This document shows, piece after piece, positions 17,423 to 20,350 of a DNA stretch of 64,000 bases (within the stretch, counting starts at the first letter, position 1; each line of letters opens with the position of its first letter). A program made the position numbers and the translations under genes. Source of the DNA: Pelomonas aquatica (lineage in GTDB: Bacteria; Pseudomonadota; Gammaproteobacteria; Burkholderiales; Burkholderiaceae_C); contig NZ_JAPPUW010000020.1 of the NCBI RefSeq assembly GCF_026712205.1, positions 1-64,000 of the forward strand, read 5' to 3'. The notes below the pieces were generated by a model, which worked only from the letters and a program-made list of their open reading frames with translations, searched no databases and was not told where the DNA came from.

Positions 17423-17462
17423 AAAAAACCCGCGAGGGCCCCGGCAAAGGGGCGGTCGCGGG
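17423..17462 (-). terminator. Strong intrinsic terminator downstream of the 16-codon ORF (minus strand)
   Basis: On the minus strand CCCGCGA ... TCGCGGG forms a 7-bp outer stem with a GC-rich inner stem (CGCCCC/GGGGCC region), followed by TTTTTT. It ends any transcript that comes leftward from luxR or from the short ORF at 17541-17591. Confidence 0.8.
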
Positions 17463-17489
17463 AACAGGACGTTCGGGGGGCACCGAACG

Positions 17490-17513
17490 AAAGCGATGGA
17501 GGTGTCGCTTTTT
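17490..17513 (+). terminator. Intrinsic terminator of the NfeD-SPFH pair
   Basis: AAAGCGA-TGGAGGTG-TCGCTTTTT gives a 6-7 bp stem and a run of five T on the plus strand. A second hairpin, GTTCGG-GGGGCA-CCGAAC, lies just before it (17471-17488). Confidence 0.65.
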
Positions 17514-17540
17514 CCAGTGGTCTTCCTCGACAGCGACGGC

Positions 17541-17591
17541 TCAACCGCCGGTGTAGGGCAGACCGAAAACTACAGCAATCAAGTTCCACAT
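17541..17591 (-). CDS. Putative 16-residue peptide gene downstream of luxR
   Basis: The ATG at 17591 opens 16 codons (MWNLIAVVFGLPYTGG) and a TGA. A GGAG Shine-Dalgarno lies six bases before the ATG, the best in this intergenic region. The peptide is hydrophobic with a small Tyr-Thr-Gly-Gly tail. About 80 bases upstream, on the same strand, is a 16-bp palindrome nearly identical to the one between luxR and the RsaM-like gene, with a TACAAA -10 candidate between them. A strong terminator follows. The layout suggests a short dedicated transcript under LuxR control, whose product could be a signal, a toxin-like effector or a leader peptide. I do not recognise the peptide. Expression is unproven, and a chance ORF remains possible. 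Confidence 0.45.
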   Translation of the reverse strand: MWNLIAVVFGLPYTGG

Positions 17592-17662
17592 GTTTCGCTC
17601 CATCTGGCCGTCAGGCCGTACTCAGATGGGCGCAGTTTGTAGGACAGCGAACGACCAGGGAA

Positions 17663-17678
17663 CTACAAACCCTGGTAG
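17663..17678 (-). promoter_or_regulatory. LuxR-type operator box 1 (CT-N12-AG) upstream of the 16-codon ORF
   Basis: On the minus strand the site reads CTACCAGGGTTTGTAG, a palindrome CTAC...GTAG of the CT-N12-AG form used by LasR/RhlR-class regulators. It matches box 2 (18405-18420) at 14 of 16 positions. It lies just after the luxR stop and is centred about 80 bases before the ORF start. Confidence 0.6.
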
Positions 17679-17687
17679 GGGACTGGA

Positions 17688-18392
17688 TCACAGAAGGCCG
17701 AGTTCCATGGCCTTCAGCACCGCCGCCTGCTTTGTCGACACATCCAACTGCTTGAACAGTTGCTTCATATGGTAGTTCACGGTGTTCTCACTGATGCCGA
17801 GTAGGGTGCCGACGACCCAGGCACTCTTCCCTTCCATCGTGAGCTTCAGGATCTCGAGCTGTCGCGCAGGTAACTTAGGGCGGTCTCCCCGCACGAGCAG
17901 TCGCGCAGCAGCTTCCTGGGCATGCACCGCGAGCAGCTGCAGGTCGGCGATCATCCGGTTGAGCTTGATCGGCTCCCTCGGCAGATCGTCATGGCGATCC
18001 ACACCCAGCAGGAAGCGCCGGTATCCCGGCATGTGCACGCTGACAGCCAAGCCCGTCCGATAACCGAACGGCGCCTGCATTTCCCACAGATCACCAGCCC
18101 CCGCCTTCACATACAGGCGCTGGTCATACACCAGGGGGGCTGCGTTGCTCATTACGTGGAGATGCACCGGATCGCGCTTGGCGTTCTCAGGATCGACCTG
18201 TGCCGCAAGGAACTCGGCAGGGGTATTGCCGATGGAGAAATAGTCCACCTTTGAGCCCGCGCTACGACGCTGCGTGGCCAATACGCCGGAGATCAGGCCG
18301 AAGTCCAAGTCATTGGCGAAGTCGATCAGCCCTTGCTTGAAAGACGCTAAATCTGCCGCTTGACTGACTTGTTCGTACCGCTGCAGGTTCAT
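17688..18392 (-). CDS. LuxR-family autoinducer-binding-domain transcriptional regulator (orphan, no luxI nearby)
   Basis: A 234-residue protein with an N-terminal autoinducer-binding domain (about residues 15-160) and a C-terminal LuxR helix-turn-helix (LPARQLEILKLTMEGKSAWV, then ISENTVNYHMKQLFKQLDVS). The RDPV aspartate-proline pair and the downstream glycine (GYRTGLAVSVHMPG) are conserved. The positions usually held by Trp57, Tyr61 and Trp85 (TraR numbering) appear to be Phe, Gln and Tyr, so the ligand may not be a standard acyl-homoserine lactone. No synthase gene is in the window. It is divergent from an RsaM-like gene, and a 16-bp palindrome lies 13-28 bases before its ATG. No clear Shine-Dalgarno precedes that ATG. 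Confidence 0.88.
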   Translation of the reverse strand: MNLQRYEQVSQAADLASFKQGLIDFANDLDFGLISGVLATQRRSAGSKVDYFSIGNTPAEFLAAQVDPENAKRDPVHLHVMSNAAPLVYDQRLYVKAGAGDLWEMQAPFGYRTGLAVSVHMPGYRRFLLGVDRHDDLPREPIKLNRMIADLQLLAVHAQEAAARLLVRGDRPKLPARQLEILKLTMEGKSAWVVGTLLGISENTVNYHMKQLFKQLDVSTKQAAVLKAMELGLL

Positions 18393-18404
18393 CGAGGCAG
18401 GGCG

Positions 18405-18420
18405 CTACTAGGGTTGGTAG
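18405..18420 (+). promoter_or_regulatory. LuxR-type operator box 2 in the luxR/rsaM-like intergenic region
   Basis: CTACTAGGGTTGGTAG, a palindrome of the CT-N12-AG form. Its centre is 66 bases before the RsaM-like start and 20 bases before the luxR start. That position allows activation of the RsaM-like gene and repression of luxR by one bound dimer. It is 14/16 identical to box 1. Confidence 0.6.
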
Positions 18421-18478
18421 GAGCAGTGCGGCGCTGATGAACGCACACTGCAAACCATCCAAATGACGGGAGACCCGA

Positions 18479-18883
18479 ATGCAGATAGCAGCCTGGCAAC
18501 TGATGGCCTGCGAAACGGTCGTTAAGACTGTAAACGAGTTCGAAAAGGTGGCACCTGATCTCCGACAAATCGGCAGCAGCCTCCGAGTGGACGATGCACG
18601 GTCCGGCCTGCGTTCGGGCCAGGAAGTCTGGGCGACCGAGGCGAATGGCGAGCCCATCCAGATCGCCTGGGAATGGACCGAGATCCAGCCGGACGTGGTC
18701 GCGCTGTTCGACCCGATGAACATCCTGTGCAACGTCGCACTGATCGACGGCGAGGGCCACACGCTCGCCCGCTCCAAGCGCATGCTGCACCTGAACAACG
18801 TCGTCCACCAGCTCGGCTGGCGCGAATGTCTCGACGAGCCCAGATCGCCCCCTCGCTTCAGCTTGTCTGCCTGGGCTCCATGA
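18479..18883 (+). CDS. RsaM-like (DUF4902) quorum-sensing modulator
   Basis: A 134-residue cytoplasmic protein with a GGGAGA Shine-Dalgarno seven bases before the ATG at 18479. The pattern EVWATEANGEPIQIAWEW ... NILCNVALIDGEGHTL ... VVHQLGWR resembles DUF4902/RsaM proteins of Burkholderia and Pseudomonas. Those proteins lie next to luxI/luxR genes and damp quorum sensing. The match is from memory of the family pattern and is moderate. The context (divergent luxR, shared operator-like box) supports it strongly. A minus-strand ORF covers the same bases but has no family features. The last 15 residues are probably outside the conserved domain. Confidence 0.65.
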   Translation: MQIAAWQLMACETVVKTVNEFEKVAPDLRQIGSSLRVDDARSGLRSGQEVWATEANGEPIQIAWEWTEIQPDVVALFDPMNILCNVALIDGEGHTLARSKRMLHLNNVVHQLGWRECLDEPRSPPRFSLSAWAP

Positions 18884-19487: not shown

Positions 19488-19495
19488 GCCATATC

Positions 19496-19572
19496 TGGCG
19501 GAGTGGACGGGGCTCGAACCCGCGACCCCCGGCGTGACAGGCCGGTATTCTGACCAACTGAACTACCACTCC
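19496..19572 (-). tRNA. tRNA-Asp (anticodon GTC), copy 1
   Basis: A 77-nucleotide tRNA with encoded CCA. The anticodon arm CCGGC-CTGTCAC-GCCGG carries GTC, and the T arm has GGGTTCGAGCCCC. It is identical in its mature part to the copy at 19920. Confidence 0.97.
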
Positions 19573-19644
19573 GTATGGGATGAATACGATACCGTCTTTC
19601 GACAATATCCAAGCTCATCAAACTCGCCCGTCTTTCGACAGGAA

Positions 19645-19720
19645 TGGCGTCCCCTAGGGGATTCGAACCCCTGTAATCACCGTGAAAGGGTGGTGTCCTA
19701 GGCCTCTAGACGAAGGGGAC
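19645..19720 (-). tRNA. tRNA-Glu (anticodon TTC), copy 1
   Basis: A 76-nucleotide tRNA with encoded CCA. The acceptor GTCCCCT pairs with AGGGGAC, and the anticodon loop CTTTCAC carries TTC. It is the substrate of the GltX enzyme encoded upstream on the same strand. Confidence 0.97.
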
Positions 19721-19768
19721 TGAATTTTCACTACCTAACTGCGTTCCACCCGAAACCCACAAAGGCCT

Positions 19769-19844
<76 letters not shown>

Positions 19845-19860
19845 GTCAAATGACGGTCGC

Positions 19861-19890
19861 AAAAAGCAAACGGCCAACTGATTGGCCGTT
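19861..19890 (-). terminator. Terminator between the two tRNA triplets
   Basis: On the minus strand AACGGCCAA-TCAG-TTGGCCGTT is followed by TGCTTTTTG. It would reduce transcription of the second (left) Ala-Glu-Asp unit unless read through or processed. Confidence 0.65.
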
Positions 19891-19919
19891 CGCTGATCGG
19901 GCGGACCCGACGGAATCCT

Positions 19920-19996
19920 TGGCGGAGTGGACGGGGCTCGAACCCGCGACCCCCGGCGTGACAGGCCGGTATTCTAACCAACTGAACTACCACTCC
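19920..19996 (-). tRNA. tRNA-Asp (anticodon GTC), copy 2
   Basis: A 77-nucleotide tRNA with encoded CCA. It is the last tRNA of the promoter-proximal Ala-Glu-Asp unit, with the same anticodon arm and T arm as the copy at 19496. Confidence 0.97.
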
Positions 19997-20070
19997 GCGT
20001 GGGATGAATTCGATACCGTCTTTCGACAATATCCAAGCTCATCAAACTCGCCCGTCTTTCGACGGGAATT

Positions 20071-20146
20071 TGGCGTCCCCTAGGGGATTCGAACCCCTGT
20101 AATCACCGTGAAAGGGTGGTGTCCTAGGCCTCTAGACGAAGGGGAC
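20071..20146 (-). tRNA. tRNA-Glu (anticodon TTC), copy 2
   Basis: A 76-nucleotide tRNA with encoded CCA. The sequence is identical to copy 1, and the spacer to tRNA-Asp is nearly identical in both units. Confidence 0.97.
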
Positions 20147-20198
20147 TAAACTTTCGCCGCTTGAACTGCGCGCCACGCAAAACCCTTTTCAGGAAATT

Positions 20199-20274
<76 letters not shown>

Positions 20275-20350
20275 GGTTTGATTTTGATTCCACCGTTGCC
20301 GGCATCTTCAAGAATCGCTTCGTTCGCAGCGCCGTTCAAGCGAGACCAAG

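Follow-up and report, generated by a model that had tools for sequence, protein, structure and literature searches.

A LuxR-type regulator with a conserved peptide gene in the place of luxI: a candidate autoinduction module of Pelomonas aquatica and other Sphaerotilaceae

Introduction

A 64,000-nucleotide (nt) stretch of Pelomonas aquatica DNA (NCBI RefSeq assembly GCF_026712205.1, contig NZ_JAPPUW010000020.1, positions 1 to 64,000; the window hereafter) carries an orphan luxR gene, a divergently transcribed rsaM-like gene, two lux-type boxes, and a 16-codon peptide open reading frame (ORF) located immediately downstream of luxR (Table 1). Judging from conservation and gene order, we consider it somewhat probable that this locus is an autoinduction module whose LuxR-type regulator has a gene-encoded peptide as its signal, in place of an acyl-homoserine lactone (AHL) made by LuxI. 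A wider reading is put forward tentatively, as one that may well be right: a new Gram-negative quorum sensing in which LuxR proteins of the Sphaerotilaceae have exchanged AHLs for ribosomal pheromones of about six residues (xPxxxW, xPxxGG), encoded by single- or multi-copy precursors in luxI's place, exported by C39-type ATP-binding cassette (C39-ABC) transporters in many lineages, and restrained by RsaM, with the signal mRNA of the window's lineage also being a conserved regulatory RNA.

The ligands generally ascribed to LuxR receptors are small molecules, and the best-known ribosomal peptide pheromones are those of Gram-positive bacteria. The peptide gene in the signal gene's place suggests that this Gram-negative family may signal by gene-encoded peptides instead of small molecules. 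LuxR autoinduction is already known; what we rate as new here is another class of signal, and if the ligand claim is true, quorum sensing would gain a new class. A true ligand claim would also tell what these LuxR solos sense, provide many natural receptor-peptide pairs for specificity work as well as genetically encoded signals, and place RsaM in a new context. In the PubMed Central (PMC) literature, no description of a LuxR protein paired with an encoded peptide was recognised by title or start of abstract (most subscription papers and bioRxiv lay outside the search), and no ligand for this LuxR type was found in print in the PMC literature searched.

The luxR locus and its peptide gene

The luxR product is a member of the LuxR family by Pfam (PF03472, 55.3 bits with a cut-off of 23; PF00196, 45.3 bits with a cut-off of 23.5). 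A search of 60 related genomes yielded 14 more luxR genes, 72-86% identical and set in the same surroundings, all at Roseateles/Pelomonas-type loci. Counting the window, there are 15 syntenic loci, and each of them retains luxR, the divergent rsaM-like gene, both boxes, and the short ORF. An earlier note on this DNA had proposed that the orphan LuxR drives, through the two boxes, a transcript for the peptide as well as the rsaM-like gene, and had stated that the proposal should be abandoned if relatives sharing this luxR lacked the ORF; the ORF, like the boxes, withstood this comparison. The peptides of the 15 loci span MWKLIAEVFGLPYTGG to MEKVSFWDVVAELLGFPFTGG. Over 15 aligned codons, the pairwise differences at codon positions 1, 2, and 3 are 0.367, 0.118, and 0.531, respectively, and the ratio of nonsynonymous to synonymous differences (pN/pS) is 0.36 in frame, compared with 0.97 and 3.0 when the frame is shifted. 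Judging from these values, the ORF evolves as a protein, and in the window it has a leaderless form of 16 residues. A reading of the ORF as a leader-peptide attenuator was rejected, because the terminator and a convergent gene come after it.

The boxes CTACCAGGGTTTGTAG and CTACTAGGGTTGGTAG are identical at 14 of 16 positions and each has the form CT-N12-AG, exactly as the earlier note described them. When the window was scanned at three mismatches or fewer with a pattern merged from both sites, which was composed only once both were known, two sites were found against 0.18 expected, none of 100 shuffles reached two, and no third site appeared, in agreement with the remark that the window holds no further copy. 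The ATG of the ORF lies 87 nt from the start of CTACCAGGGTTTGTAG, and the terminator that had been placed behind the ORF is present as a terminator-like hairpin with a T-run. On the peptide side, a -10-like ACTG stands 26 nt after the box in all 15 loci (ACTT in L012), and in the rsaM-facing promoters ACTG stands at the same distance in 13 of 15 (27 nt in L019; ACTC in L014). Because the -10-like element begins 26 nt after the box, the box would lie near -42 in both promoters, which is a usual box place for LuxR-type activators. A scan of the luxR locus with the sigma-70 consensus found no promoter. The circuit of the earlier note is supported by this geometry, by the codon conservation of the ORF, and by the recurrence of luxR-peptide pairs in diverged homologs described below.

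The label RsaM-like holds for the family as a whole, as a profile of 64 relatives matches PDB 4o2h (BCAM1869) with an E-value of 2.9e-5 and 55 of these 64 match PF16245 at E <=1; the window protein taken singly scored 16.6 bits against PF16245, below the cut-off of 25, and phmmer found nothing for it in PDB. PF16245 is RsaM, and a divergent rsaM-luxR solo arrangement is the "type 6" topology, Pelomonas included; the mode of action of RsaM is unknown (PMC10710839). A divergent RsaM-like gene adjoins luxR at all 80 named loci, beside 95 of 102 LuxR, and beside 72 of 91 LuxR collected later.

Table 1. Features of the luxR locus in the window, with the evidence for each.
Feature	Position	Strand	Evidence
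luxR, 234 aa, autoinducer-binding and GerE domains, AHL contacts partly lost	17688..18392	-	Pfam; LasR alignment; 81-row alignment
Lux-type box CTACCAGGGTTTGTAG, upstream of the peptide transcript and facing that way	17663..17678	-	15/15 syntenic loci
-10-like element ACAAACTG, ACTG start 26 nt past box	17633..17640	-	Comparative consensus; place kept 15/15 (L012: ACTT)
5' hairpin CCATCT..AGATGG, predicted to mask the Shine-Dalgarno region in part	17600..17629	-	Minimum-free-energy fold of 17425-17630
16-codon peptide ORF MWNLIAVVFGLPYTGG, C-terminal core LPYTGG	17541..17591	-	15/15 syntenic loci; codon-position differences; pN/pS
3' hairpin AAAGCGA / TCGCTTT, loop CACCTCCA	17490..17511	-	Near-invariant alignment (L019 diverged); in consensus fold, not in single-sequence minimum-energy fold
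3' hairpin CGTTCGG / CCGAACG, C-rich loop	17470..17489	-	Alignment; single-sequence fold; consensus fold
Intrinsic terminator CCCGCGA..TCGCGGG with T-run	17423..17462	-	Alignment; folds; terminator scan
Lux-type box CTACTAGGGTTGGTAG, luxR/rsaM-like intergenic, facing the rsaM-like gene	18405..18420	+	15/15 syntenic loci, sequence variants permitted
-10-like element GCACACTG, ACTG start 26 nt past box	18443..18450	+	ACTG there in 13/15
rsaM-like gene, 134 aa	18479..18883	+	Profile of 64 relatives vs PDB 4o2h

The same genome holds what is apparently a second luxR of this type, split into codons 1-176 beside IS66 TnpA/TnpB genes (L002:1501-2013, contig C20) and a C-terminal piece that comes with a peptide of its own, MKIIDLVYQILGLPKLGG, near the end of another contig (L003:1391-1704, contig C27); the pieces are not joined. 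Elsewhere in the window (19495-20280, minus strand), a near-identical duplicated block of tRNA genes was seen by eye.

Peptide genes after luxR across the Sphaerotilaceae

The luxR genes of this genus at 43-50% identity mostly have a peptide of their own downstream, e.g., MKVIDLICEILGLPKLGG, and five extra luxR copies in genome G019 (L055 twice, L056 twice, L058) have none there. A contig scan kept 80 of 255 relatives, belonging to Roseateles, Pelomonas, Rubrivivax, Ideonella, Aquincola, Paucibacter, Mitsuaria, and others. A set of 128 LuxR ORFs reduces to 102 distinct ones (identity counted from residue 31 on), and a short peptide gene directly follows 94 of the 102 by eye; a relaxed rule also gave 94, of which L056 and L058 were judged false, and L075 and L119 were added by eye. 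Under a strict rule (Shine-Dalgarno plus C-terminal motif), which was devised with examples already known, a peptide follows 72 of the 101 LuxR with 400 nt downstream (L095, with 31 nt, was left out) versus 4 of 101 on the reverse strand, while shuffles gave a mean of 4.1 and a maximum of 9 in 20 rounds and random windows of the same loci gave 17 of 1803. Loci collected once this rule was fixed gave 45 of 89 forward versus 0 of 89 reverse; this later set has 91 new LuxR, 45 of them strict, and its relaxed count of 68 contains false ORFs and was not used. Other LuxR-type genes have a peptide after 1 of 26.

Common to the peptides is a core of the form x-P-(K/R/Y)-x-x-(W/G). Precursors in other genera are often longer and have a double-glycine (GG)-like leader, the core being, for instance, TSLPVKGW or GPKGGW. 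The precursors range from the nine-residue MTSYPRVGW (L073) to those with five copies of TPRGG(G/S)W (L133) or seven of GPRGTW (L136), and a Pro-containing 5-mer is repeated exactly, in up to seven copies, in 34 of 146 candidate precursors, some of which are false ORFs. In L083, one core occurs twice (GFPRVGF, SFPRVGF), in short ORFs that follow each other 205 and 294 nt after luxR. In L045 (9102-9458) and, by eye, in several relatives, a small ORF (..TLxxAKxLGYxQIGQIRxTP..) comes after the paralog-type peptide; it is reminiscent of the RpoA C-terminal domain, but gave no match in Pfam.

A survey of the family found this LuxR type (E <=1e-55) in 90 of 349 sampled genomes and 38 of 141 genera, with only part of these loci retrieved, and 23 of 300 genomes of the order match at 1e-35. 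Among 16 order-level loci retrieved, the complete module is present in L159, which belongs to this same family, and the other 15 have no strict peptide. L169 holds an order-level LuxR from outside the clade, and 303 nt downstream of it lies a short ORF that contains a double-glycine-like stretch and ends in FPIFPR. A tree of the 94 LuxR with a peptide contains a leaderless clade of 38 and another clade in which 49 rows have a GG leader and 7 are leaderless; the tree was midpoint-rooted, carries a long-branch warning, and was built with rows L055 (twice), L056 (twice), L058, L072 (twice), and L095 dropped. Tandem arrays of several clade luxR genes were observed in L206, L207, L208, L209, and L210.

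In many relatives, genes for an HlyD-type protein and a C39-peptidase ABC transporter come after the peptide gene with a GG leader, as Pfam confirmed for HlyD and C39-ABC beside L041. The exporter adjoins 44 of 48 GG-leader loci versus 1 of 21 leaderless loci (Fisher 1.8e-12), a count which omits 23 loci with less than 2.5 kb downstream and no membrane fusion protein (MFP) match, the 15 window-type loci among them, and in which L118 was assigned to the leaderless class by hand. In the later set, by MFP only, the figures are 28 of 32 versus 0 of 13, where the leaderless L258 was classed as GG-leader by the regular expression and L248 looks false. The ORF of the window, with its 16 leaderless residues, is not a C39-exported double-glycine peptide, and the only C39 match of its own genome is on another contig. 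In 47 of 48 GG-leader loci, a CTGT-N8-ACAG box lies upstream of the peptide; the leaderless loci were compared with three simple box patterns, and 23 of 44 fit one of them.

The LuxR receptor and luxI

The TraR invariants of AHL-type receptors are W57, Y61, D70, P71, W85, and G113 (PMC4338825). Aligned with LasR, the window LuxR has F61, Q65, and Y89 at the places of W57, Y61, and W85 and keeps D74, P75, and G114; with three of the six it does not have the residues of an AHL-type receptor. Across the clade, the place of LasR Y56 is never Y, that of W60 (window 61) is W in 2 of 81, and that of Y64 is Y in 20 of 81, and 13 of 15 order-level LuxR outside the clade retain Y-x3-W-x3-Y. Judging from the alignment, the clade has lost key AHL contacts (the Y56 and W60 places). 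The PipR/OryR subgroup of LuxR solos has a flanking proline iminopeptidase, W57M, and Y61W (PMC4338825); the window LuxR stands outside it, having as neighbors a gene for an SPFH-type protein (by eye) and the rsaM-like gene, and F and Q as the residues.

No luxI-type (PF00765) match was found in 15 of the 23 genomes searched. The sole match in the window's own genome (31.9 bits) was rejected as luxI, as it scored 244.7 bits as the exosortase acyltransferase TIGR03694, and no luxI partner was found near luxR or elsewhere in that genome. This exosortase-associated acyltransferase (L038, C1:108814-109020 of the own genome), which is above the PF00765 cut-off, can be mistaken for a luxI product. 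A search of plasmids with the window LuxR gave no match, and one with a GG-type LuxR gave 10 records with identity of about 33% at most.

Covariation of the peptide core and the LuxR pocket

Peptide-core distance correlates with ligand-domain distance, with the DNA-binding domain controlled, at 0.24 (0 of 500 permutations; -0.07 for the reverse), some miscut cores being included. Enrichment in the ligand pocket was measured as the area under the curve (AUC) over a list of positions which we take to be the LasR pocket. In 49 GG-leader loci, the AUC is 0.58 at core position 0 and 0.68, 0.72, 0.68, and 0.66 at positions 2-5; when 79 RsaM columns served as control traits in the 34 loci shared, two of them reached the peptide mean and none its maximum. 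Eight cores of this analysis, which covered the GG-leader and the leaderless loci, were set by hand. In 50 further loci, where only cores of the form xPxxxW were used (94 loci of both sets), core positions 2 and 3 give an AUC of 0.70 and 0.64, and none of 91 non-pocket columns reaches the peptide maximum. The link between core variation and the AHL-pocket positions of LuxR is thus moderate, and in the leaderless class of the window it is weak. This covariation favors the peptide as a candidate ligand of LuxR. Charge complementarity at column 66 (Fisher 1.0e-4, 5.8e-7) was rejected, as it fails with phylogeny (4 independent pairs, not significant).

RNA structure of the peptide transcript

The 3' part of the transcript consists of two hairpins with C-rich loops, on which the earlier note made no remark, and then the terminator, and is conserved above the level of the ORF in 14 of 15 loci, L019 having diverged. 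The fold z-score of the transcript is -3.8. Covariation of the pairs adds little because most pairs of the consensus fold are invariant, with two-sided change in 2 of 38. The 5' hairpin is missing from the RNAalifold consensus of the 15 loci and is therefore unsupported as a conserved element. A simple terminator scan found 2 terminator-like sites, against 1.1 expected by chance in the stretch. The exact CGTTCGG / CCGAACG hairpin pattern was found in 13 of 40 genomes searched (the own genome included), all of this genus, and a search of Rfam with the 3' hairpins gave no match at the gathering score (GadY, 18 of 45 bits). Judging from these features, the window transcript may also serve as a small RNA, that is, as a dual-function RNA. 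In G019, the CGTTCGG / CCGAACG hairpin is also present at a second place (G019:C20:2058-2077; L148, also L056), close to another clade luxR but on the opposite strand.

The proposed module and its alternatives

In the proposed module, LuxR would act at the two boxes, one leading to the peptide transcript and the other to the rsaM-like gene. The C-terminal core (LPYTGG in the window; xPKGGW, xPRGGW, etc., in relatives) would be the signal read by the ligand domain of LuxR and, because the peptide would be the signal sensed there, LuxR activity would feed back onto its own signal gene, with RsaM as a probable brake, as in AHL systems. In the GG-leader relatives, the adjoining C39-ABC/HlyD pair would cut and export the precursor; the leaderless form of the window, with no exporter adjoining, would need another exit or would act inside the cell.

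Several observations weigh against this module. The place of LasR W88 is W in 51 of 81 clade LuxR (Y in 30), and the equivalents of D73 and P74 are kept in all 81, so that a small-molecule ligand is still compatible with the receptor. PF00765 matches occur in 8 of the 23 genomes, 7 of them weak and G032 with two strong ones. Tandem luxR arrays have one recognised GG-leader peptide (4 of 5 loci) or none (L207). Leaderless peptides have no signal, and 20 of the 21 leaderless loci counted have no adjoining exporter; 21 of 44 match none of the three box patterns. In the 45 leaderless loci, the class of the window, the pocket AUC is 0.48-0.62 (whole core 0.46), with DNA-binding-domain columns as control giving a mean of 0.41 and a maximum of 0.63; in the 50 further loci it is 0.61 and 0.55 at core positions 0 and 4, and 13 of the 91 non-pocket columns reach the peptide mean. 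Because the pocket result is weak in the window's own class, our confidence in the module is tempered.

Among the other explanations, the peptide could be an output of LuxR and no more; it would then be a secreted effector that is bacteriocin-like, resembles ribosomally synthesized and post-translationally modified peptides, or is aimed at neighbors or hosts, and LuxR would sense something else, such as foreign AHLs or another metabolite. We regard this as unlikely, though still worth serious thought: GG leaders with C39-ABC/HlyD pairs also export microcins and bacteriocins, the kept D73/P74 equivalents suit it, and lux boxes indicate regulation, not sensing; against it stand the cores of merely about six residues, the single peptide per locus in luxI's place, the pocket covariation, and the lack of any recognised modification enzyme beside L039, L041, and L044 (simple gene caller; Pfam scan of the L041 neighbors only). 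That the peptide modulates LuxR or RsaM inside the cell, as an anti-activator or stabiliser, would best fit the leaderless type of the window, where an exporter is nearly always missing, and small anti-activator proteins are known to target LuxR proteins (PMC13043044). The same core, however, is found in GG-leader precursors adjoining exporters, and multi-copy precursors suit the release of short units, and we judge this explanation rather improbable.

The transcript of the window's lineage might instead be mainly a small RNA, whose C-rich loops would pair with Shine-Dalgarno regions, and the ORF secondary. The 3' hairpins, better conserved than the ORF, and the fold z-score speak for this, but the ORF carries a protein-coding signal, the exact hairpin pattern is limited to this genus while the peptide is family-wide, two-sided changes are few, and Rfam gave no match at its gathering score, which together make it a quite remote prospect in our view. 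Short ORFs and 16-base near-palindromes are common, and so the ORF could in principle be unrelated and the boxes look-alikes, but this is contradicted by the conservation, the codon signal, and the controls, and we give chance practically no weight.

Comparison with known systems

The gene arrangement of the window, with rsaM divergent from a luxR solo, is that of the "type 6" topology; its description (PMC10710839) mentions no peptide gene, the word peptide being absent from the main text, while the window has one. LuxR solos of the PipR/OryR type do not answer to AHLs, and PipR answered the tripeptide Ser-His-Ser at high concentration, for which a peptide ABC importer was required (PMC4981722, PMC10134790). 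They differ from the module proposed here in their outside or plant-derived ligand and their proline iminopeptidase flank, and the available text mentions no dedicated encoded peptide (PMC4981722, PMC10134790). The class C LuxR solos PluR and PauR have endogenous non-AHL ligands, and a LuxR solo with a self-made non-AHL signal is also what is proposed here; their ligands are enzyme-made photopyrones or dialkylresorcinols, whereas the proposed ligand is a ribosomal peptide (PMC4981722, PMC10134790).

With LuxI/LuxR AHL autoinduction, the loci described here share the order of luxR, lux box, and then signal gene, with RsaM adjoining; they differ in that the gene in the signal position is a peptide ORF, not luxI, and in that the places of LasR Y56 and W60 are changed. 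Gram-positive peptide pheromones include double-glycine peptides with C39-ABC export as well as the Rgg/SHP and PlcR/PapR systems, and their known receptors are histidine kinases or tetratricopeptide repeat regulators, not LuxR proteins. What they share with the modules described here is a short C-terminal core, a GG leader or a short hydrophobic precursor, and a gene located beside that of the regulator.

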